IMG/VR virus record: IMGVR_UViG_3300021170_000062
Location: 1 to 26,908 of that record
DNA length: 26,908 nucleotides
Strand: one strand, 5' to 3'
DNA from: a virus
Positions 2,057 to 19,085 of the stretch are shown in pieces; the stretch's first letter is position 1; each line of letters begins with the position of its first letter. Position numbers and translations under genes: made by a program. The notes beneath the pieces are model-generated. The model ran no database searches, had not been told where the DNA came from, and saw only the letters and a list, made by a program, of their open reading frames with translations.

Positions 2057-2860
2057 ATGAAAACTCTCGCGGGGATTTTCTTTTCCATCTGCTGCGCAAT
2101 CAGTTCAGGAGCGCAAGCGCAGGTTCAAGTCAGCACAGCTGGGAATTACGGCCGATTGTCTATTAATTCTGGCGCCGTTCTGGATAGCACTTACAGTCAA
2201 CGCACGTTTAATAATGTTACGTACAACTTGGGAAACTTCGACTTCGCTATGCAGGCGTCTTTCCCTGGTCTATATACGAATGCGTCGGATGTGCCTGCTC
2301 AATATGGCGGTACTACCCTAGACAGCATTACATGGACTTTTTCTGGGCAGAATGGGAGTTATGGGTGTGGGTCTAGGTGTGGAAGTGGTATCTACCTCAC
2401 CTATGCTCCTGCGCTAAATCCGGATGGCAGCACAATTACCCCGCTGCATGTTTATTTGATGACGGCCCAGCAAGAACTAAACCAGGATGGAAGTCCAGTT
2501 GTACTTCAGGGATTCTGTGGCGCGCAGCCCTGTCAGCTAGCACAGTGGCAGGATGTAGCTCCAGCTGTTATGGCAGACGGATCAGCCGCAGTATTCAATC
2601 ATTCGTTTTCTAACTGCACCTTTTGGCTACACTGTGATATATGGACTCTTAGCGGGCATCTACCAGCTGGTAACGTAATTATGAATCCAGATGGGACCAC
2701 CAGTCTCGTGCCGATTCTTTATCTTCTTCATGTGTCCGGTGCCGCATGCGGCGGAAGGAGCTGTGGGATTATTGGAAACGCTACATTATTTGTAACTGTT
2801 CCAGCGTTTCATACTACTTATATCGCGCCGCCCAATCCTCCAGGCGGAGGTGATGACTAG
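2057..2860 (+). CDS. Secreted protein of unknown function (267 aa)
   Basis: It starts ten bases after the previous stop, with AAGGATAA upstream of the ATG, so the two genes form an operon. Residues 1-21 are a signal peptide (MKTLAGIFFSICCAISSGAQAQ, cut after AQA or nearby). The mature protein is beta-like and rich in Gly, Ser and Asn, with several Cys pairs (GCGSRCGSG, FCGAQPC, NCTFWLHC, ACGGRSCG) that suggest disulphides in an oxidising compartment. It ends in a Pro/Gly tail (PPNPPGGGDD). I do not recognise the family. Its place at the end of a cargo pair, convergent with the late operon and bounded by a terminator, suggests a moron or conversion gene. Confidence 0.75.
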   Translation: MKTLAGIFFSICCAISSGAQAQVQVSTAGNYGRLSINSGAVLDSTYSQRTFNNVTYNLGNFDFAMQASFPGLYTNASDVPAQYGGTTLDSITWTFSGQNGSYGCGSRCGSGIYLTYAPALNPDGSTITPLHVYLMTAQQELNQDGSPVVLQGFCGAQPCQLAQWQDVAPAVMADGSAAVFNHSFSNCTFWLHCDIWTLSGHLPAGNVIMNPDGTTSLVPILYLLHVSGAACGGRSCGIIGNATLFVTVPAFHTTYIAPPNPPGGGDD

Positions 2861-2887: not shown

Positions 2888-4786
2888 TCATGGCAATAGA
2901 TAAGTTCCAAAAATATTTAATACAGTACCGGATCCTCCTGGATAAGTGTTGTCGTAGTTCTGCACCGCTACGGTACCTGTTCCTGAAACCGCCAATCCTT
3001 GAAGCATCTTTCCGGTGGATGCTGATTCGCGTCCGTAACACAACACCGGAGGGCCTGTGGACGCAGTTGATGGAAGTGTCACGTTGATCGATGTTGCACC
3101 AGTCCCATTGGTTGTGATAGTAACGACGGCAATGAAGTGAACGACTTTATTGATTCTTAAATACCATCCAGAAGCACTAACGGTAGTCAGTATCCCTGTT
3201 CCTGAAGTAGCAACCGGAACATAGGTAACCCATCCACCATTAGTCGGAGTCTGATATGAACGCACACCAGGCACGCTCAAATCAGTATTAAGTTTTACCG
3301 GCGTTGCATTGGTGCCTGGATTTCCTCCTATTACATTCAAATATCTAACATTGTTCGAATTGCTGTAGTCAATCATAGGTGCCATGCCAGTCCACTGATT
3401 ATCAGTGAAGCTCGCACTGATGACACTGGCCGCTCCGAAGCATTGAACCGGAGTCGTTCCGGCTACGCCCTCCCAGTCACACTGGGTAAAGGTCGCATCC
3501 AGAACGAAGCAACCCGTATCGCAGAAGAAAGCGCCAGATCCTCCCGTTGACGACAGCAGGCAGTTGGTCAGAGACATCTTGTTCGCGTAGGAAACCTCGA
3601 GTGCGATCTGACCACCAGTTCCTCCACCGAATACGCAGTTGACAAACTTGACCGGCTGCCATACAGCAGTGCTAGCCGTGCCCACGATATGTACGGCTGG
3701 ACCAACCGTAGTCAAAGTGGGCTCGAATACGCAATTTGTGAATTGTGCCCCGCCGAACAAAGCTGCTGGCTGATCCATATATAGCGTGCCATTATTTGAA
3801 GGTGCTCCGGTAAATTCCACATCTGACCAAACCAAAGAGCCCAATCCATTTAGATAGCAGCAATAGGTTCCTCCTCCGGTCAGGAACCGGCACCGGCTCA
3901 TGATCATATCTACGCCGGCAGCTGCAGAGCAGTTCACATAAAATTGCGCTCTAAAACATGCATAGAAGATGCAATCGAAAAAGCTCAGATAAAACGCAGG
4001 AGATGAGCCATCGATATGAACTAGATCGTATCCACCCGATAGCAGACAAGCGTCTAGAACCACATTGTTGCAGCCTGTGATCCATACTAGCCAGTTATTA
4101 GGCGTAGCTCCGGTAGCGTTTGCAACTATGGAAAGACGAGAAAGTTTTCCAACGTTCGTAAACTTTATCGCCGCAACATTCATCCCGGATGAGCATTGAA
4201 TTGAACTTGGAGATCCTGCCGAATCAGAATCACCTTGCAATATCTGGTGAGGACTTGGGAGAAGAGTGCCGGATATAATATAGGTACCGCTAGGGAAAAA
4301 TACTTCAGTTGCGGTAGAAGCTAAGGCTAAATTGATTGCTGCCGTATCATCTGTAACGCCATCGCCTTTTGCACCGAAATCCTTGACGCTGCGGAATTCT
4401 CCTAGTTTCGCTGCAACATTAGTAATTGTTGCTCCAGATCCTACTGGCGTATAGCTGACATTGGCTGCATTGTTGACGTTAGGAGCAGTCAGATCCCCGA
4501 TGCCGTAGATGTTGTCATACGTTGGGCCGATCTGTACTCCTAGAATATCTGTGATGATGAACTTATAGGACACTCCTCCTGTCAGCCATATCTCGAACGG
4601 AGGAATCCCGGCTGGACTCAGCACGATCGGATTAGTATTCGCTACATTTCCTGCCGACGTCGTATAGGTCGCTGCCGGCGTCGTTGTTCCTGCCAGATAC
4701 GTATTGATGAATCCACCATTGGCAGGGAGCGCATTCGAGCCTAACCAATGATCTCCATTACCAACGGGTGAGAGAAATACGCTCAT
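2888..4786 (-). CDS. Tailspike with pectate-lyase-type beta-helix
   Basis: The product has 632 residues. Residues 1-100 form a virion-anchoring head (SPVGN, then NGGFINTYLAGTTTPAATY and a later YDNIYGIGD) that resembles the P22-type head-binding domain in layout. Residues 132-155 carry the signature FGAKGDGVTDDTAAI, typical of the entry to right-handed beta-helix proteins of the pectate lyase 3 family. The helix runs to about residue 505. The last 120 residues form a small fibre-tip-like domain ending IFGTYLLP. Such proteins trimerise and bind or cleave surface polysaccharide; catalytic residues cannot be read from sequence alone. It is the last gene of the late operon, one base after the fibre gene stop. 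Confidence 0.88.
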   Translation of the reverse strand: MSVFLSPVGNGDHWLGSNALPANGGFINTYLAGTTTPAATYTTSAGNVANTNPIVLSPAGIPPFEIWLTGGVSYKFIITDILGVQIGPTYDNIYGIGDLTAPNVNNAANVSYTPVGSGATITNVAAKLGEFRSVKDFGAKGDGVTDDTAAINLALASTATEVFFPSGTYIISGTLLPSPHQILQGDSDSAGSPSSIQCSSGMNVAAIKFTNVGKLSRLSIVANATGATPNNWLVWITGCNNVVLDACLLSGGYDLVHIDGSSPAFYLSFFDCIFYACFRAQFYVNCSAAAGVDMIMSRCRFLTGGGTYCCYLNGLGSLVWSDVEFTGAPSNNGTLYMDQPAALFGGAQFTNCVFEPTLTTVGPAVHIVGTASTAVWQPVKFVNCVFGGGTGGQIALEVSYANKMSLTNCLLSSTGGSGAFFCDTGCFVLDATFTQCDWEGVAGTTPVQCFGAASVISASFTDNQWTGMAPMIDYSNSNNVRYLNVIGGNPGTNATPVKLNTDLSVPGVRSYQTPTNGGWVTYVPVATSGTGILTTVSASGWYLRINKVVHFIAVVTITTNGTGATSINVTLPSTASTGPPVLCYGRESASTGKMLQGLAVSGTGTVAVQNYDNTYPGGSGTVLNIFGTYLLP

Positions 4787-4787
4787 A

Positions 4788-5888
4788 TCAGAACATCATA
4801 AAGCCAGAGAATTCGGATGTCTGTCCAATAAAGAAATTCGCGCTTAGTCCAGCACCGCTATTGTTGTTCACACTTATCGTATCTGCCGCCGTAAGAAAAA
4901 CACATGTACTAGCTGTCATCGCTGCAACATTGGTAGTGGTAACTTGCGGAACAAACGGGCCAAATGTTTGTCCGCTAGATATAACAAGATTGAAACCTAC
5001 ATTCAATGTTCCACCAGAATTGTTCGTAATGCTAACCATTGCATTGATTTGATACCAGCCTGTTATGGGAGCTGTAAATACTCCGGTTGAATTGCTATAT
5101 CCAGTGCCATTCTGTTTATTGATCGTATCGAATACGATAATTGGGCCACCAGTAGTCTGATTGCTGGAACGTCTAGCATGAAACGCTGGCTGATTTGCAT
5201 TCGTTCCTATACGCAATAATCCGCTATAGGTCGTTGCTTGATTCGATATCGTATCCGCTCCGGAAAGCGTCATTGCATATGGGAGTACAGACGGCACGCT
5301 AGGGTTGCTCTCCCCTAGCAGCGCGACTTGAACCGAATTCAGTCCGCTATCCAGAGCCATTCCGGTGTCCATAGTCAGAACGACCGTGGTGGATACTCCA
5401 AATGTGCTGGTCAGAACAGAGCCGTAAACAATGCCGGCAGTGACGGTTGCCTTAACGCGCCGCCCTACCTGAAACGTCGTGGTCGTGTTTCCAGGAGTAG
5501 TAAACGTCGTGGCGCTCGAGTATGTCGGCACTGCATTAGATGCAATCCACTCCGATGTGACTCCTACTCCTGTGTCGTTAATGCCAGTGACGTTATCGAT
5601 GATCCAGATCTGAAATCCGGTCGAGTCGGTGAGCTGGAACTTGTAAGCCTGCCCGGATAGAAGCCATACAGCGCCGGCAAAACGACCATCCGGTCCGAGC
5701 TGCATCGATACTGCGTTCTGAACAGAGCCCAGATTGTTCGCATAGGTTGCGATCGGCGTGCTTGTCCCGGCCTGGAACGTGTTTAGGAATCCGCCATTTA
5801 GTGGTAGATTAGGGGGGAAATTGGCGCCAGCAGCCCCGAAGAATTGCTGACTTTCGTTCCCGATCGGCGAAAAATTATACGTTGCCAT
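4788..5888 (-). CDS. Tail fibre with C1q-like C-terminal domain
   Basis: The product has 366 residues. Its first 105 residues match the tailspike head in arrangement: SPIGN, NGGFLNTFQAGTSTPIATY, a phrase with DGRFAGAVWLLSG, then IIDNVTGIND. The middle is a Ser/Thr-rich beta region. The last 135 residues read like a C1q/TNF-type trimeric jelly roll (FHARRSSNQ..., GYSNSTGVFTAPITGWYQI, then alternating beta strands to the end). The start ATG directly follows the upstream TAA (TAAATG). It is probably a second, alternative receptor-binding protein, or an adaptor on the same tail site as the spike. Confidence 0.8.
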   Translation of the reverse strand: MATYNFSPIGNESQQFFGAAGANFPPNLPLNGGFLNTFQAGTSTPIATYANNLGSVQNAVSMQLGPDGRFAGAVWLLSGQAYKFQLTDSTGFQIWIIDNVTGINDTGVGVTSEWIASNAVPTYSSATTFTTPGNTTTTFQVGRRVKATVTAGIVYGSVLTSTFGVSTTVVLTMDTGMALDSGLNSVQVALLGESNPSVPSVLPYAMTLSGADTISNQATTYSGLLRIGTNANQPAFHARRSSNQTTGGPIIVFDTINKQNGTGYSNSTGVFTAPITGWYQINAMVSITNNSGGTLNVGFNLVISSGQTFGPFVPQVTTTNVAAMTASTCVFLTAADTISVNNNSGAGLSANFFIGQTSEFSGFMMF

Positions 5889-10142: not shown

Positions 10143-11225
10143 TCAGATCAGCTTTGCAAACGTCTTATCCGTGAACTCGTATCCAAGTCCTTCGAATAGC
10201 TTCGTGTGATCCATATGGATTTTGCAGCCCGTGATGACTTTTACTACGCCTAGATCCTTCAACGCGCGTTCTGCAAATTTCAGGAGCTCGACGCCGATCT
10301 TGCTCTTGCGATACTGCTTCGCAATGAAATACAGATCGACCATTCCGTGAAGCGTGTCTTTGTAGTGGTAGTGACCGCCAACAAAAGTGACGTGATAGCC
10401 GATCAGATAGCCATCCTCGCGCACGGTCACTGTGTGCAGCTTGTTCTCCTGCTCCAGCTGCCAGTACCGTTCCCAGTCCATCGCAACCGGAATTGTATCC
10501 TTAGTGAGAGCTAATTCTTCCCAATGGATATGCTCGAATTCCCGGAATTCAGGAGTGCAGGCGCGGAAGCTCTCGACCTGATAGCTGATTCCGCTTGGAT
10601 ACTTATCGGGAAGCGCCACCATAACGGTCCGGTACGTGGGCTTGATATGCTCGAAAAGAGGCGTGCGCATATCCATGATGAACGTAATCCGGTCGTGGTC
10701 CGAATCGTTATCGACCCAATGAGGCTTGCTGTTGTCGAAGATGAACAGGTCTCCTGGCAGGGGCTCGAATGATTCTTCACCACAATGAAACGTCGCGCCT
10801 GGATGATTCTGCAGGCACAAGTGAAAACGCTGGTAGTGACTGACTGGCGAACCGTAGTCAATATGACGCGTGATTTTCCCACCCGGCGGAAGCTTCGTGA
10901 TGATCGCACGTCCCATACGCTCACCGAAGCATGCCTGCATCAGCGAGTACAGATGCCGAGGCGCCTCCGTAAGCACCTTGGATGCGTCATACCAGATCGC
11001 ACCCATATCATCGACGGATGACTTTTCATCCAGCTGATTGAAGCGGATCCAGATATCGCTCACTGCACTGTGCGCCGTCTCCTTGTGCGTAGTGCGAAGC
11101 CGGTTCTGATTCCATAGCTGCGGATTGCATTCGAGCTGATACAGAAGCTCGCGCACATGCAGGCCGCGCGCTACCAGCTGGAAATTGCGGAGCTGTGTTT
11201 CTTGCATCTGAGCCAGATCGTTCAT
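10143..11225 (-). CDS. 2OG-Fe(II) oxygenase (Asp/Asn beta-hydroxylase type) fused to GNAT acetyltransferase
   Basis: The product has 360 residues in two domains. Residues about 50-190 look like an aspartyl/asparaginyl beta-hydroxylase-type double-stranded beta helix: KLPPGGKITRHIDYG supplies His121 and Asp123, PLPGDLFIFDNSKPHW supplies His169, and Arg179 in HDRITFIM is the expected 2-oxoglutarate contact. Residues about 205-360 read as a GNAT fold: VTVREDGYLIGYHVTF, then YFIAKQYRKSKIGVELLKFAE at the acetyl-CoA loop, and a final LFEGLGYEF. The GNAT loop is degenerate (R-K-S-K-I-G). GAATAGAG precedes the ATG. It stands just before the ejection genes, roughly where P22 carries gene 14, so a virion protein is a plausible substrate. 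Domain identity is fairly firm; the substrate is unknown. Confidence 0.8.
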   Translation of the reverse strand: MNDLAQMQETQLRNFQLVARGLHVRELLYQLECNPQLWNQNRLRTTHKETAHSAVSDIWIRFNQLDEKSSVDDMGAIWYDASKVLTEAPRHLYSLMQACFGERMGRAIITKLPPGGKITRHIDYGSPVSHYQRFHLCLQNHPGATFHCGEESFEPLPGDLFIFDNSKPHWVDNDSDHDRITFIMDMRTPLFEHIKPTYRTVMVALPDKYPSGISYQVESFRACTPEFREFEHIHWEELALTKDTIPVAMDWERYWQLEQENKLHTVTVREDGYLIGYHVTFVGGHYHYKDTLHGMVDLYFIAKQYRKSKIGVELLKFAERALKDLGVVKVITGCKIHMDHTKLFEGLGYEFTDKTFAKLI

Positions 11226-14963: not shown

Positions 14964-15920
14964 TTAAGCAAAGCCCCCGTGGAGAATCCAGCCTGCGTCT
15001 TTGCGTATTTTCTGCTGCAGTACATCATCGAACGATGCTGGCATTTGCGGGACCATGTTCGTACGACGAATCAGAGAACGTCCAGCGGCTGCGAACTTCG
15101 AGACCATCTGCACCTGTGTCGGTTCTAACTTGCCGTATTCAGGCATCAGCAGCTCTGCCAGTCCCCAGTGCATCGCCCCCTGATACCCCTGGGGAAGCAC
15201 GATATTGTCGTTGATGGTCGAGAAGTTATTCAGCACCGTGTCCACGAATATGTGCATTTCTCCCTGGCTTGGATTAGGGAAGAAGTACAGGCTTGCCAGC
15301 GGTTCGGTCGGGAGCATTGAGATGATTTTCGGCCACGGACCGGGAAGCGTCTTGATCCCGATCTGCTGATATTGCTCGTAGGGCCATACATCGACGTCGT
15401 AGTCCAAAGTACCGGTAATGCTGTTCACGATCCGCACGAAAGCCGTATTGATGCGCATCGGCCTTGGCTGGTAGGAAGTGATCGTGATGCTGCCGGTCGC
15501 TGGGGACGATAGATTCAGATTGTAGGTTCCGATGGCATTATTACCATTGCCACCAAAAGCCGTTCCAAGGCTGGTGATGGCTGAACCTGCCGTAACACCG
15601 GTACCAGAGATAATTTGTCCTGTCGAGATAGCTCCCGATGCCAGAGCAGTGACAGTAAGCACTGTTCCGCTAACGGATCCGGTAACTGACGAACCCACAG
15701 AACCGCCCTGTCCAATGGTGTAGATGTATTGTCCACCGATCAGCTCCAGGATGACTTCCTGGACAGAGAATACCAGCAAGTGGTCATTGGACCACTGATC
15801 CAGCATCTCATTGAGCAGATAAAACGCGTCGTTGGTTTCGGGCGTTCCTATCGTATCGCCAGAGCCGAAGGCGCCGATCGACCGGAAGGCCGATGAGATT
15901 ATATTTAAGGGCTGAGGAAT
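14964..15920 (-). CDS. gp4-like tail accessory protein, apparent ATT start, with inserted domain
   Basis: From the first ATG (15806) the product would lack the usual N-terminus. The 38 codons upstream are open and encode PQPLNIISSAFRSIGAFGSG and then NDAFYLLNE, the conserved beginning of this family, but contain no ATG, GTG or TTG. GGGAGG at 15927-15932 stands six bases before an ATT at 15918-15920, so ATT initiation (318 residues) is proposed; CTG at 15926 is a less well-spaced alternative. Residues 40-70 (MLDQWSNDHLLVFSVQEV...GGQYIYTIG) and 152-318 (RPMRINTAFVR, LPQGYQGAMHWGLAELLMPEYGK) are typical of the P22 gp4-type protein that extends the portal. Residues about 74-150 are an extra inserted domain. 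Confidence 0.8.
   Translation of the reverse strand: MPQPLNIISSAFRSIGAFGSGDTIGTPETNDAFYLLNEMLDQWSNDHLLVFSVQEVILELIGGQYIYTIGQGGSVGSSVTGSVSGTVLTVTALASGAISTGQIISGTGVTAGSAITSLGTAFGGNGNNAIGTYNLNLSSPATGSITITSYQPRPMRINTAFVRIVNSITGTLDYDVDVWPYEQYQQIGIKTLPGPWPKIISMLPTEPLASLYFFPNPSQGEMHIFVDTVLNNFSTINDNIVLPQGYQGAMHWGLAELLMPEYGKLEPTQVQMVSKFAAAGRSLIRRTNMVPQMPASFDDVLQQKIRKDAGWILHGGFA
15471..15701 (-). other. Inserted beta domain in gp4-like protein
   Basis: This encodes about residues 74-150, with VSGTVLTVTALASGAISTGQ, ISGTGVTAGSAITSLGTA and GTYNLNLSSPATGSITI. It splits a YTIG...RPMRI junction that is normally nearly continuous. Its pattern matches the insert in the gp10-like protein at 12826-13029. Confidence 0.65.
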
Positions 15921-15932: not shown

Positions 15933-15940
15933 ATCTAGAC
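15931..15940 (-). repeat. 10-bp direct repeat, copy at the end of the 236-aa paralogue
   Basis: GTCTAGATGG (minus strand) is identical to 16642-16651. Both copies carry a TAG stop followed at once by an ATG. They bracket the gene at 15935-16645. Confidence 0.7.
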
Positions 15941-16645
15941 ATTTCGGAAAACTAAGGCAATATTGGCCGCCGACAGATTCGCCCCGGTTGCGTTGATATC
16001 CGATATCGCATAGGTAGCGCTGGCGGCATTCTGGACGACCGAATGGATGCCCATTCCGGCATACAGCCCGCTTGATGTAGCTGTTGCATTCGTGAATTCG
16101 ACGGCGAAGTTAGAAGCTGTTTGAATCTGATTGCCGCCATACATCGATAGCGTCTGTCCCAATGCAGTTGTCGCTGCCCCTACCGAGCTGGTATTGGTGG
16201 ACATAACAAACGCCACGAAATATTCGCCAGGAATGAACGATACATTCAGCGGCACTGAAACCGCCCGCACGGCCGCCTGATTAAGCTGCGTCTGTCCGGC
16301 AGTATTGCTCGCAACGCTATAACTGACGGTCGTAGAAGCCGTTGACATGGAACTGAGCGTCGAGGCATTCCTACTGTAGATGCCAGCGATTGCCGTTATG
16401 ACCAATCCGTAAGTAACAGCGCTGGCAGTCGATGCCAGAGACATTCCAACTAAGACGTCCATGCGGGTTGCGGTGAAAGCGTCACCAACCGGCATGTATT
16501 GAAAACTCATGCTGCCCTGACCCGGGCCGGTTACTGCTGTAAGGTTTCCTTCGGGAAATATTGTCCGATTCGGGAAGGCGAGCGGACCGACCCCAGTCGA
16601 TGCTATTCCTGCTGGAAGGACGGTAGGGGCGCCATGCAGAGCCAT
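15935..16645 (-). CDS. Ser/Thr-rich surface-type protein, paralogue B (236 aa)
   Basis: The protein is all-beta in appearance, about a third Ser/Thr/Ala, with no signal peptide and no enzyme motif. It is a clear paralogue of the 244-residue protein at 18351-19085: shared phrases include LTAVT.PG.GS.SFQY, STTVSYSVASN.AG.TQLNQ, FV.STNTSSVG..TTALGQT and an identical 27-residue C-terminus ending IALVFRNV. Third codon positions differ widely even where the protein is identical, so the duplication is old. The ATG follows the upstream TAG directly. The location near the coat gene suggests a head decoration or fibre subunit. The family is not recognised by name. Confidence 0.72.
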   Translation of the reverse strand: MALHGAPTVLPAGIASTGVGPLAFPNRTIFPEGNLTAVTGPGQGSMSFQYMPVGDAFTATRMDVLVGMSLASTASAVTYGLVITAIAGIYSRNASTLSSMSTASTTVSYSVASNTAGQTQLNQAAVRAVSVPLNVSFIPGEYFVAFVMSTNTSSVGAATTALGQTLSMYGGNQIQTASNFAVEFTNATATSSGLYAGMGIHSVVQNAASATYAISDINATGANLSAANIALVFRNV

Positions 16646-16651
16646 CTAGAC
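16642..16651 (-). repeat. 10-bp direct repeat, copy at the start of the 236-aa paralogue
   Basis: GTCTAGATGG (minus strand) contains the TAG of the 127-residue gene and the ATG of paralogue B. It is identical to 15931-15940. Confidence 0.7.
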
Positions 16652-17029
16652 GCCTTCGCCTGGAGTCATGTAAACGTCTGCGGTAGAGCCTCCGGCTTCA
16701 GTCCATATCGAGAACCATGCATTGGTCGGAAATCCAAGCACTTCGATTTCCGATCCCAGAAATGTCATCAGGCCGGCCTGATTGTAAGTGGGAGTCTGTC
16801 CTGCAGCTGGCGCACCCCCCGCTCCCGCTATGTTGCTCGCGATGGTTGCGATCTGACCCCAGGAGATATGTACGATAACGGTACTGACGCTCGCATCTGT
16901 GATGATGATGCGAACCTGCTGATTAGGGCTGGATACAGGCGCAGCAATCTGAAATGGCGTGCAGGGAGTAGAAGTAGCTTCCGTCAGGAACTGGCCGGCG
17001 ATCGCCTGGAATGCGAAGCAGGTAGCCAC
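16646..17029 (-). CDS. Small beta-type virion protein candidate (127 aa)
   Basis: A GTG start follows the methyltransferase stop by one base. The sequence (MATCFAFQAIAGQFLTEATSTPCTPFQIAAPVSSPNQQVRIII..., FLGSEIEVLGFPTNAWFSIWTEAGGSTADVYMTPGEG) has the look of a compact beta sandwich of the decoration or head-protein type, with no enzymatic motif. It lies between the methyltransferase and paralogue B in one coupled row. It could be a head-surface protein or a target of the neighbouring enzymes; no family is recognised. Confidence 0.6.
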   Translation of the reverse strand: MATCFAFQAIAGQFLTEATSTPCTPFQIAAPVSSPNQQVRIIITDASVSTVIVHISWGQIATIASNIAGAGGAPAAGQTPTYNQAGLMTFLGSEIEVLGFPTNAWFSIWTEAGGSTADVYMTPGEGV

Positions 17030-17030
17030 G

Positions 17031-17603
17031 TCAGGCTTTCTTGACCATCGTGCAATGAGTGTCCATGCAGGCCTCTTTGTAGTTCTGCATTGCGAACTGC
17101 TGGTACTCGGAATTGCGTGTCAGCAGATCAGGCCGCATTCCGTAGCCCCATGTGCATTCGAAGTCGCACGAGTAGCCCTTAGGATTCCAGCGGATATCCG
17201 TATGCGGTGCGTCCGTCTCGCGCCATTTCTTCGACAGGTAGTAGAACATCATCTCGGCCACTGGCGGCCACTGATGAGTGAAGTCCCCGTAGGCCCGATT
17301 GCTGGCCCAATGCGGCGTGATGATGACTGCTTTGCATCCAGGTTTAAGGACACGGTAAAGCTCATTGAAGAAATTGACGCGTTCTTCTCCAGTCAAATGT
17401 TCCAGGAAATGGCTCGAATGAACCTCATCAACTGAATTGTCATCGTAAGTCCAACGGCCGCGCACATCCATAACGATATCGACACCATCCATCTTGTACT
17501 GGTCGATACCGATAAAGCCTTCCTTTTTGTTCTTGCCGCAGCCGATATCGAGCCGAACTTCGACCGGAACGACAGAAAGCTTGGCATTGCTTTTCTTTCC
17601 CAT
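17031..17603 (-). CDS. Class I SAM-dependent methyltransferase
   Basis: The product has 190 residues with GAGGA four bases before the ATG. Motif I is VRLDIGCGKNKKEGFIGID (about residues 16-34). Then VDIVMDVRG, the HFLEHLTGEE phrase and ELYRVLKPGCKAVIITPHW follow in the order of the methyltransferase 11/SAM small-molecule group. It is not a DNA methyltransferase of the NPPY or PCQ kind. It begins seven bases after the glycosyltransferase, so the two are coupled and may act on the same glycan or protein. The substrate is unknown. Confidence 0.85.
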   Translation of the reverse strand: MGKKSNAKLSVVPVEVRLDIGCGKNKKEGFIGIDQYKMDGVDIVMDVRGRWTYDDNSVDEVHSSHFLEHLTGEERVNFFNELYRVLKPGCKAVIITPHWASNRAYGDFTHQWPPVAEMMFYYLSKKWRETDAPHTDIRWNPKGYSCDFECTWGYGMRPDLLTRNSEYQQFAMQNYKEACMDTHCTMVKKA

Positions 17604-17610
17604 GTGATCC

Positions 17611-18342
17611 TCAGTACATCATGTCCGGTTGCCCAAACGCGCCGGTCAAATCGTAATGCCCGACACGTACTCCGCAATCGATAGCACAGCGATATCCGTG
17701 CTTGCGAAAGTCGGACCAGGCGTACAGATCCTGGGTCATCAGGCCATCTTTTACCTGAGTATGAAACCACGGCTTACGCAACTTCGGATCCTTGAACATT
17801 TTCAAGCGCCATAGGTTGAATCCCATGCCGGTCCCGCAGCACTCGACCAATCCGCCAGCAGGATCAGGTAACTGAGGACGGAAATTCAGGACAGGATCTT
17901 TCGGATCGCCCCAGATCTGCGCGCAGCCTTCTAGGCCCTTCGTGTAGTACAGGCCGCCGATGCAGGAAAGTTCCGGATGCTCCTCCATGCGCTCGAGGAG
18001 CTTGATCACACCGTCAGGAGGAGGGGCATTATCGTGCTCGATAGTCAGCAGATATTCCCACTTGCTCAGTTCAGGATGGGCTAGAACTTGCTCGACAACA
18101 GTCGAATAGGCGTGGCCTACCTCCATCCCCTGGGCGAGGATGCGGACTACGCCGTTATTCGGAGGAAATGCCAGATTCCAGTGGCTAAGAGCGACCTTCG
18201 CCGGAATGGTGTCGGCGGCGGGGATGGCTACAACGATCCTCTGCTTCTTCCATGAACCCGTCTTGGTCAGACGGTTCTTTGAAGCTTCCAGATCCTTGTT
18301 GTGTATCCCTCCGAAATCCTGGATCACCAATTCCGGTTTCAT
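17611..18342 (-). CDS. GT-A type glycosyltransferase
   Basis: The product has 243 residues with AAGGG four bases before the ATG. RIVVAIPAADTIPAKVAL opens the nucleotide-sugar domain. LLTIEHDNAPPPDGV carries a DxD-like Glu-His-Asp at 102-104. GGLYYTKG, CCGTGMGFNLWRL and TQDLYAWSDFRKHGYRCAIDCGVRVGHYD, the last with the expected His229, follow the order of GT2-like enzymes. There is no membrane segment, so it should act in the cytoplasm during assembly. It sits between paralogue A and the methyltransferase. Target could be a virion protein, DNA base or host glycan; its place inside the head-protein block favours a virion protein. Confidence 0.82.
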   Translation of the reverse strand: MKPELVIQDFGGIHNKDLEASKNRLTKTGSWKKQRIVVAIPAADTIPAKVALSHWNLAFPPNNGVVRILAQGMEVGHAYSTVVEQVLAHPELSKWEYLLTIEHDNAPPPDGVIKLLERMEEHPELSCIGGLYYTKGLEGCAQIWGDPKDPVLNFRPQLPDPAGGLVECCGTGMGFNLWRLKMFKDPKLRKPWFHTQVKDGLMTQDLYAWSDFRKHGYRCAIDCGVRVGHYDLTGAFGQPDMMY

Positions 18343-18350
18343 TTGACCCT

Positions 18351-19085
18351 TTATACATTGCGAAACACTAGCGCGATATTAGCAGCAGAAAGGTTAGCGC
18401 CAGTAGCGTTAATGTCCGAAATGGCATACGTAGCCAGCGGTGCCGACTGCGTTACCGAGTGCACTCCCATGCCTGCGAAGAGGCCCCCGGAAGTGGCCGT
18501 GGCAGCGGTAAACTCGACCGCATAGTTCTGGGCAGTCTGCAACTGGTTGCCGCCATAAACCGACATCGTTTGTCCGAGTGCGGTCGTGGACAGGCCTACC
18601 GAACTGGTATTGGTCGAGATGGCAAAGCCAACGATGTATTCACCTGCGTAGACGCTGGCAAATCCCAAGGGCACCGATATATTGCGCAGGGCGCTCTGAT
18701 TAAGCTGAGTTACGCCTGCCGAATTGCTTGCCACACTGTAACTTACCGTTGTCGATCCAGTAGAAAGCGCCGTCAGTCCAGCCGTGGTAGCCGTGCCAGA
18801 GCCCAGACTCGTATTGGTGTAGATCCCGGCAAATGCCGTGATAGCAAGCCCGTACGTATTGGTCGTTGCGCTCGAGGCGACCGAGAAGGCGAATAGAGCA
18901 TCAACCCGGCTGGCAGTGAAGGCTTGGGGGACGTTCACATACTGGAAGCTCAGCGATCCCATGCCGGGAGCCGTCACGGCCGTGAGCTGATCCTGAGGGT
19001 AGATGTAGCGTGCCGGCTGGCTGACCGTGATCAGCTCGGCCATCGAGTTGGATACGATATTAGTGGCGGGTCCTGGATTAGGCAT
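18351..19085 (-). CDS. Ser/Thr-rich surface-type protein, paralogue A (244 aa)
   Basis: GAGGA six bases before the ATG. The protein has the same architecture as paralogue B: a variable first 35 residues, then QLTAVTAPGMGSLSFQY, a Thr/Ser-rich beta core with an extra short segment (TATTAGLTALSTGS) absent from B, and the same C-terminus as B. The variable N-terminus with conserved remainder suggests different anchoring of a common body, or different timing of addition to the head. It is separated from the coat gene only by the 133-residue gene. Confidence 0.72.
   Translation of the reverse strand: MPNPGPATNIVSNSMAELITVSQPARYIYPQDQLTAVTAPGMGSLSFQYVNVPQAFTASRVDALFAFSVASSATTNTYGLAITAFAGIYTNTSLGSGTATTAGLTALSTGSTTVSYSVASNSAGVTQLNQSALRNISVPLGFASVYAGEYIVGFAISTNTSSVGLSTTALGQTMSVYGGNQLQTAQNYAVEFTAATATSGGLFAGMGVHSVTQSAPLATYAISDINATGANLSAANIALVFRNV

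Follow-up and report, generated by a model that had tools for sequence, protein, structure and literature searches.

A Ser/Thr-rich domain linked to a predicted glycosyltransferase and a methyltransferase in P22-like, T7-like and other environmental phages: a candidate virion-glycosylation cassette

The window analysed here, i.e. the whole stretch of 26,908 nucleotides of the IMG/VR virus record IMGVR_UViG_3300021170_000062, belongs to a P22-like phage, with a portal and a P22-type coat protein recognised in it, and harbors on its minus strand a block of five open reading frames (ORFs). These are A (18351-19085, 244 residues), a stand-alone protein carrying a domain that we call DOM, as derived from the ORF list, BLASTP, profile and model; GT (17611-18342, 243 residues), a soluble GT-A glycosyltransferase according to its motifs and predicted fold; MT (17031-17603, 190 residues), assigned through Pfam to the class I S-adenosylmethionine (SAM) methyltransferases (Methyltransf_11); P127 (16646-17029), a small Ser/Thr-rich protein of 127 residues with a GTG start, supported by the ORF list and by comparison with relatives; and B (15935-16645, 236 residues), a second stand-alone DOM protein and paralogue of A by BLASTP and profile. 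The gaps between them are, in order, 8, 7, 1 and 0 bases, which makes the block operon-like, and the positions of the five frames, as well as the seven bases separating GT from MT, are those given in the initial annotation of this DNA. That annotation took the unit to be an enzyme pair of a P22-like phage flanked by two paralogues, a description that has to be abandoned: the conserved part is the A-type domain together with GT and MT, and well over a hundred environmental phages, very different from one another, carry these three genes as a unit.

A and B share 66% identity over 221 residues (BLASTP, E = 1e-94, single comparison) and their last 27 residues are the same, so that the paralogy with an identical C-terminus, already proposed, is confirmed. 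In these tails 21 of the 27 codons differ and every difference is synonymous, which rules out chance or recent gene conversion and points to selection at the protein level as what maintains the tail. A role of the tail as an enzyme recognition tag is disfavoured, since similar tails occur in two loci where no enzymes were found: one is L103, whose tails, TGANLSAANIALVFRNV and a close variant, agree with those of A and B, and the other is L105, with a variant form of the tail. Being kept in both without enzymes, the tail looks structural. The close relative L003, whose GT is 84% identical, shows the same gene order as the window, with orthologues of A and B that are 88% and 83% identical, respectively. 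Concerning composition, Ser plus Thr amount to 25.0% in A and 23.3% in B, but equally to 24.1% in P133 (19098-19499, minus strand), a small Ser/Thr-rich protein of the ORF list located between coat and A, and to 23.5% in a tail protein of 366 residues. The richness alone can thus not single out A and B, and what was initially offered as their mark holds as a figure and not as a distinction.

Neither A nor B has a convincing match in Pfam or PHROGs, and A has none in NCBIfam either. A profile built only on A and B and on their two orthologues in L003 was iterated over the six-frame ORFs of the GT loci, where it converged on one Ser/Thr-rich domain of about 185 residues, found in 81 loci and spanning approximately residues 38-244 in A; A and B are free-standing copies of it. 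The domain end always lies within 30 residues of the protein C-terminus (median 15), and no reversed or shuffled ORF scored below 1e-3 in the control for profile drift, so that DOM is a family by length, C-terminal position, profile match and clean controls. In most phages it ends a fibre-like protein of 400-1400 residues made of Gly/Ser/Thr/Asn-rich repeats, and the seven large DOM proteins tested gave no Pfam or PHROG match. The broad alignment is too diverged for a pattern scan and closer subsets were used instead; at several DOM positions 80% or more of the sequences have Ser or Thr (A residues 77, 90, 109, 158, 196, 199, 210 and 223). The best match of the model of A in the PDB is chain Z of 9jwb, a cyanophage A4 capsid unit, a weak similarity (E 7.7e-3) that we take as no more than a lead toward a capsid-surface location. 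Viral structural neighbours of the model include phage collagen/C1q-type fibre proteins; A, B and the seven large DOM proteins show no match to the Pfam C1q profile, and the predicted likeness suggests similarity of fold only.

With 13.1 bits, GT stays below the cut-off of Pfam Glycos_transf_2 (PF00535, 23.3 bits). Its AlphaFold model (predicted local distance difference test, pLDDT, 76.6) has 141 PDB matches at E<=1e-3, of which the top ones are GT-A enzymes, the best being the LH3 glycosyltransferase domain, COLGALT1, POMGNT1, GalNAc-transferases and Mimivirus R699 (E ~1e-7 to 1e-5), mainly protein-acceptor transferases. Residues 102-105 form an EHDN motif, putatively metal-binding and of the DXD type, in which E102, D104 and N105 are invariant in 30 relatives; T203-Q204-D205-L206 (TQDL) is invariant too, and about 70 positions in total are invariant or nearly so. 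Relatives of GT were found in 189 stretches in one IMG/VR scan and in 273 in another, and across unrelated phages they are 62-84% identical to the window protein. MT exceeds the Methyltransf_11 cut-off (34.2 vs 21.2 bits) and displays LDIGCG as SAM motif I. Membrane segments were sought in both enzymes and none was found (maximum 19-residue hydropathy 1.24 for GT and 0.61 for MT). The two assignments made initially are hence well supported, that of a SAM methyltransferase by family score and that of a cytoplasmic GT-A glycosyltransferase by the predicted fold and the lack of a membrane segment.

To describe what travels with the enzymes, a first GT-seeded sample of 80 IMG/VR loci (labelled L plus a number) was collected, of which 74 are non-redundant and 79 were used in ORF clustering. 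An MT homologue lies near GT in all 80, and in 74 of 74 after redundancy removal, with its start at most ~150 bases from the GT end in 58 of the 75 loci compared. DOM is found upstream of GT on the same strand, next to it or a short distance away, in 70 of the 74 non-redundant loci, and in 61 of the 62 whose upstream sequence extends over 3 kb or more. The single miss among the latter, L055, is an ORF-calling artefact, as is L019, given that DOM ends exactly at the tblastn start of GT; L017 and L076 have less than 2 kb upstream of GT. Another sample, for which a distant GT served as seed and which shares part of its contigs with the first, has DOM upstream in 58 of 59 loci and MT nearby in 73 of 73, and MT-seeded loci contain GT in all cases except L204, whose start is the contig end. 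With such figures for DOM, and MT always accompanying GT, the enzymes are indeed specifically tied to an A/B-type protein, which is the part of the overall initial interpretation that stands, while the unit bracketed by paralogues does not.

The same picture emerges from a profile-free analysis, in which every ORF lying no more than 5 kb from GT in the 79 loci was clustered by BLASTP. GT and MT appear in 77 loci and the DOM family in 74, compared with 14 for portal, 10 for gene 4 and 5 for coat, i.e. the virion genes around vary and DOM-GT-MT stays. An additional cluster of 18 loci consists of unlabelled ORFs, of which the example inspected runs antisense over GT, so it was not counted as a genuine family. 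In the opposite direction, scans seeded with DOM yielded GT in 26 of 31 contigs, and in 14 of the 19 outside the first GT list. The five contigs lacking it, where a GT profile search over the whole records gave no GT, are L090, which breaks off within DOM, three contigs of 5.0-6.2 kb (L103, L112 and L114), and L105, 12.4 kb long, in which DOM follows a collagen-like stalk. L103 is P22-like and follows the gene order of the window, from coat through P133, a P127-like and a LamG-like protein, A and B to gene 4. The paralogue pair is incidental, and B and P127 are dispensable, lineage-specific genes; P127 is related to a protein of L003 and, through its C-terminus, to one of L103, and P133 is conserved together with A/B in close relatives only. 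The set also gains intervening genes without being broken, such as an HNH-like one in L106 and small proteins in L046 and L060.

Two observations concern the surroundings of DOM. The LamG-like lectin domain protein of L103 (2437-3134) sits beside A and B. A second small family (~220-300 residues) with AWVS/AWIRA-like end motifs often occurs between DOM and GT, and was seen upstream of GT in L007, L009, L013, L036, L039, L047, L048, L072 and L076.

The genomic placement of the unit is diverse. In the window it comes after the P22-type major coat protein (PF11651, 19509-20768, minus strand, by Pfam), and the next head gene after the block, at the P22 gene 4 position, is at 14964-15806 on the same strand (ORF list). 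In L107 and L108 the unit (DOM of 240 residues, GT, MT) lies between portal and scaffold, with the same gene order in the shorter L109 and L113; it is also present in the T7-like L008 and L045, which have a Head-tail_con portal, and in the 447-kb contig L006. DOM-GT-MT can thus be regarded as a unit conserved among P22-like, T7-like and other phages, in which a phage-encoded glycosyltransferase is physically linked to a structural-protein-like gene. A scan of 40 records gave no match for the HK97-type capsid (PF05065) and, for the contractile sheath (PF04984), one sub-cut-off match only, in the 447-kb contig. In a tblastn search of the INPHARED phages neither A nor two diverse DOM domains had a match, and GT matched only three Manatee Spring records of 42,585 bases. 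The two ends of the 47.1-kb contig IMGVR_UViG_3300042691_003166 (L091 and L205) split the GT gene between them, which suggests a circularly permuted complete genome with the unit. The GT-profile scan of genome contigs also gave a contig binned as Candidatus Magasanikbacteria (L099, 1-4585) with a DOM C-terminus and GT, together with a GT4-like gene, RelBE-like pairs and a beta-lactamase-like gene; it may be mis-binned phage DNA or show the unit in a bacterium of the candidate phyla radiation.

The three families diverge at distinct rates, with a mean pairwise identity of 68% for GT, 51% for MT and 24% for DOM. In 66 non-redundant loci the distance correlations are 0.41 for GT-MT, 0.12 for GT-DOM and 0.12 for MT-DOM (all p<0.02 vs permutation). 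A near-constant GT beside a freely varying DOM would fit a broad-acceptor protein glycosyltransferase using a common donor better than an enzyme specific for a host glycan.

Other features of the window should be mentioned. At 10143-11225 (minus strand), among head and tail genes, an aspartyl/asparaginyl beta-hydroxylase domain (PF05118) is fused to a GNAT acetyltransferase, with a sub-cut-off LpxO match as well; the corresponding place in L003 has no match, and the fusion could be another protein- or lipid-modifying enzyme of the late operon. Beside the tail genes and on the opposite strand, 1303-2046 and 2057-2860 (plus) encode tandem proteins with signal-peptide-like N-termini and no Pfam match, the first resembling a fibre tip domain in its C-terminal part. 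Finally, 2888-5888 (minus) encodes two tail proteins whose N-termini resemble each other; one has a C1q domain (PF00386) at its end and the other is a pectate-lyase-like tailspike.

Starting from the observed gene order, DOM homology and three-gene linkage, together with the GT-A fold prediction and the membership of MT in a SAM-methyltransferase family, we propose that the DOM protein receives from GT a sugar that MT then caps, A-GT-MT being the copy that this phage carries of a portable cassette for virion glycosylation, an explanation to which we give slightly better than even chances. DOM, be it the C-terminal part of a fibre-like protein, as in most phages, or free-standing, as in A and B, would be the acceptor, with A as the main one here and B as a possible second. 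In the cytoplasm of the infected cell the GT-A enzyme would transfer a sugar from a common nucleotide-sugar to Ser/Thr of DOM, presumably O-linked, and MT would then O-methylate the DOM-borne sugar. The modified DOM would be displayed on the particle, A and B probably lying on the virion surface, and a coat of methylated sugar could affect how the particle adsorbs, how stable it is or how it is recognised. The broader version sees in DOM-GT-MT a protein-glycosylation kit, self-contained and horizontally mobile, that unrelated phage lineages share, with DOM as an acceptor tag either fused to fibres or free-standing and bearing an O-methylated sugar; it is more tentative, and we place it somewhat below even chances.

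Several points weigh against this explanation. The chemistry is deduced from genes and predicted folds, and the fold likeness of GT, itself predicted, cannot fix the acceptor. The model of A, a beta-sandwich, has moderate confidence (pLDDT 70.9), and its PDB match is weak also by template modelling (TM) scores (0.35/0.42). The GT-DOM correlation (r = 0.12, p = 0.006) is too weak to show a tight coevolution of enzyme and acceptor. L151, the sole real exception to DOM upstream of GT, has GT-MT behind a terminase-like gene and no DOM in the available 3 kb upstream. DOM in turn stands without GT in L105, L112 and L114, mostly short contigs, and between coat and gene 4 of L103 both A and B are kept with no enzymes between them. 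Regular occurrence of the paralogues without the enzymes had been named initially as what would contradict the interpretation, and this is borne out only in part: of the 19 new DOM contigs, five lack GT, namely these four and L090, and 14 carry it.

The weak correlation, the enzyme-free L103 and L105 and the DOM-free L151 would also be expected if the three genes were a passenger cassette, moving together by adjacency with no direct enzyme-substrate tie and with enzymes that, e.g., produce a small molecule or act on host proteins. Order and linkage outlast a deep divergence (DOM ~24%) and differing genomic positions, beyond what hitch-hiking would lead one to expect, and the gene gains in L106 and L046/L060 leave the set intact, so we regard this as improbable. 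Phage glycosyltransferases commonly hypermodify DNA, and the pair could accordingly decorate phage DNA bases; passages in PMC12619734 cite examples of such enzymes acting on DNA. Here the invariable partner is a structural-looking domain, the genes lie in a late head operon and no base-precursor gene was recognised within the window, which makes this reading very unlikely.

Two further alternatives change only the acceptor. If the enzymes modified another virion protein (coat, P127, P133 or tail proteins), with A and B as mere neighbours, the equal Ser/Thr richness of P133 and of the tail protein, and the small AWVS/AWIRA-like-ended protein between DOM and GT in several loci, would find a place; that coat, portal and gene 4 occur in 5, 14 and 10 of the 79 GT loci vs 74 for DOM makes this quite unlikely. 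The fibre-like build of most DOM proteins points to the host surface instead, where GT and MT could alter a glycan that is the receptor of the DOM fibre, by serotype conversion or superinfection exclusion, with fibre and enzymes inherited as a matched set. Such fibre/receptor logic would link the genes too, and phage glycosyltransferases of the host-surface-modifying kind are known, according to passages in PMC12619734. The idea has to face a GT that stays 62-84% identical across unrelated phages, with a copy in the Candidatus Magasanikbacteria metagenome-assembled genome, while DOM varies freely; two enzymes with no membrane segment, encoded in a late structural operon; and a window in which DOM is free-standing and the fibre and tailspike genes are separate. 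Moreover, no flippase or polyprenyl-transferase partner of a gtrABC-like system was found among the block ORFs, and none recurs near GT. We therefore consider it unlikely and retain glycosylation of DOM by GT, followed by capping through MT, as the preferred explanation.

The phages with demonstrated virion glycosylation are few (mycobacteriophages). If the proposal is true, such glycosylation would be a general feature of environmental phages (P22-like, T7-like and larger), the kit being a general virion-coating strategy new to description; three unannotated protein families would gain a testable function, and a genetically encoded glycosylation tag supplied with its own enzymes would become available. 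A conserved GT beside a variable acceptor would also be a clean system for asking what benefit a phage draws from a sugar coat.

Literature searches gave no description of a DOM-GT-MT unit, and the closest known systems each share part of it. In the mycobacteriophages Che8 and Rita, sugars have been reported on capsid and tail-tube subunits, at their C-termini (Freeman et al. 2023, as cited in passages of PMC12619734 and PMC11256854). The likeness lies in the phage-encoded glycosyltransferases; the candidate unit described here differs in that the glycosyltransferase shares its operon with a methyltransferase and with a dedicated domain that evolves fast, and in its spread over several lineages of environmental phages. 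With the GT-A protein glycosyltransferases LH3, COLGALT1, POMGNT1, GalNAc-Ts and Mimivirus R699, and with the bacterial SpsA, GT shares the predicted fold and the EHDN metal-site-like motif, although it is only ~10-16% identical to them and below the Pfam GT2 cut-off. MT shares family membership and LDIGCG with Methyltransf_11 and phrog_6636 and differs in lying near this GT family in every locus examined. Cyanophage A-4L contributes the best PDB neighbour of the model of A, its protein A4L_25 (9jwb chain Z, capsid asymmetric unit), which is also the best-ranked, non-significant (E 0.051) DOM-profile match among the A-4L ORFs; unlike the window, A-4L has no significant match to the GT or MT profile. 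The nearest counterpart is Podoviridae sp. ctKR88 (MW202524), a complete 42.6-kb P22-like metagenomic genome with a GT 59.6% identical, in which DOM-MT-GT-MT lies between the major capsid protein and a gp10-type stabilization protein, as in the corresponding region of the window. Its island is larger, with a second MT and, listed ahead of DOM, three additional genes that bear glycosyltransferase-like names, and its DOM, rather than free-standing, is the C-terminus of a repeat protein of 598 residues.

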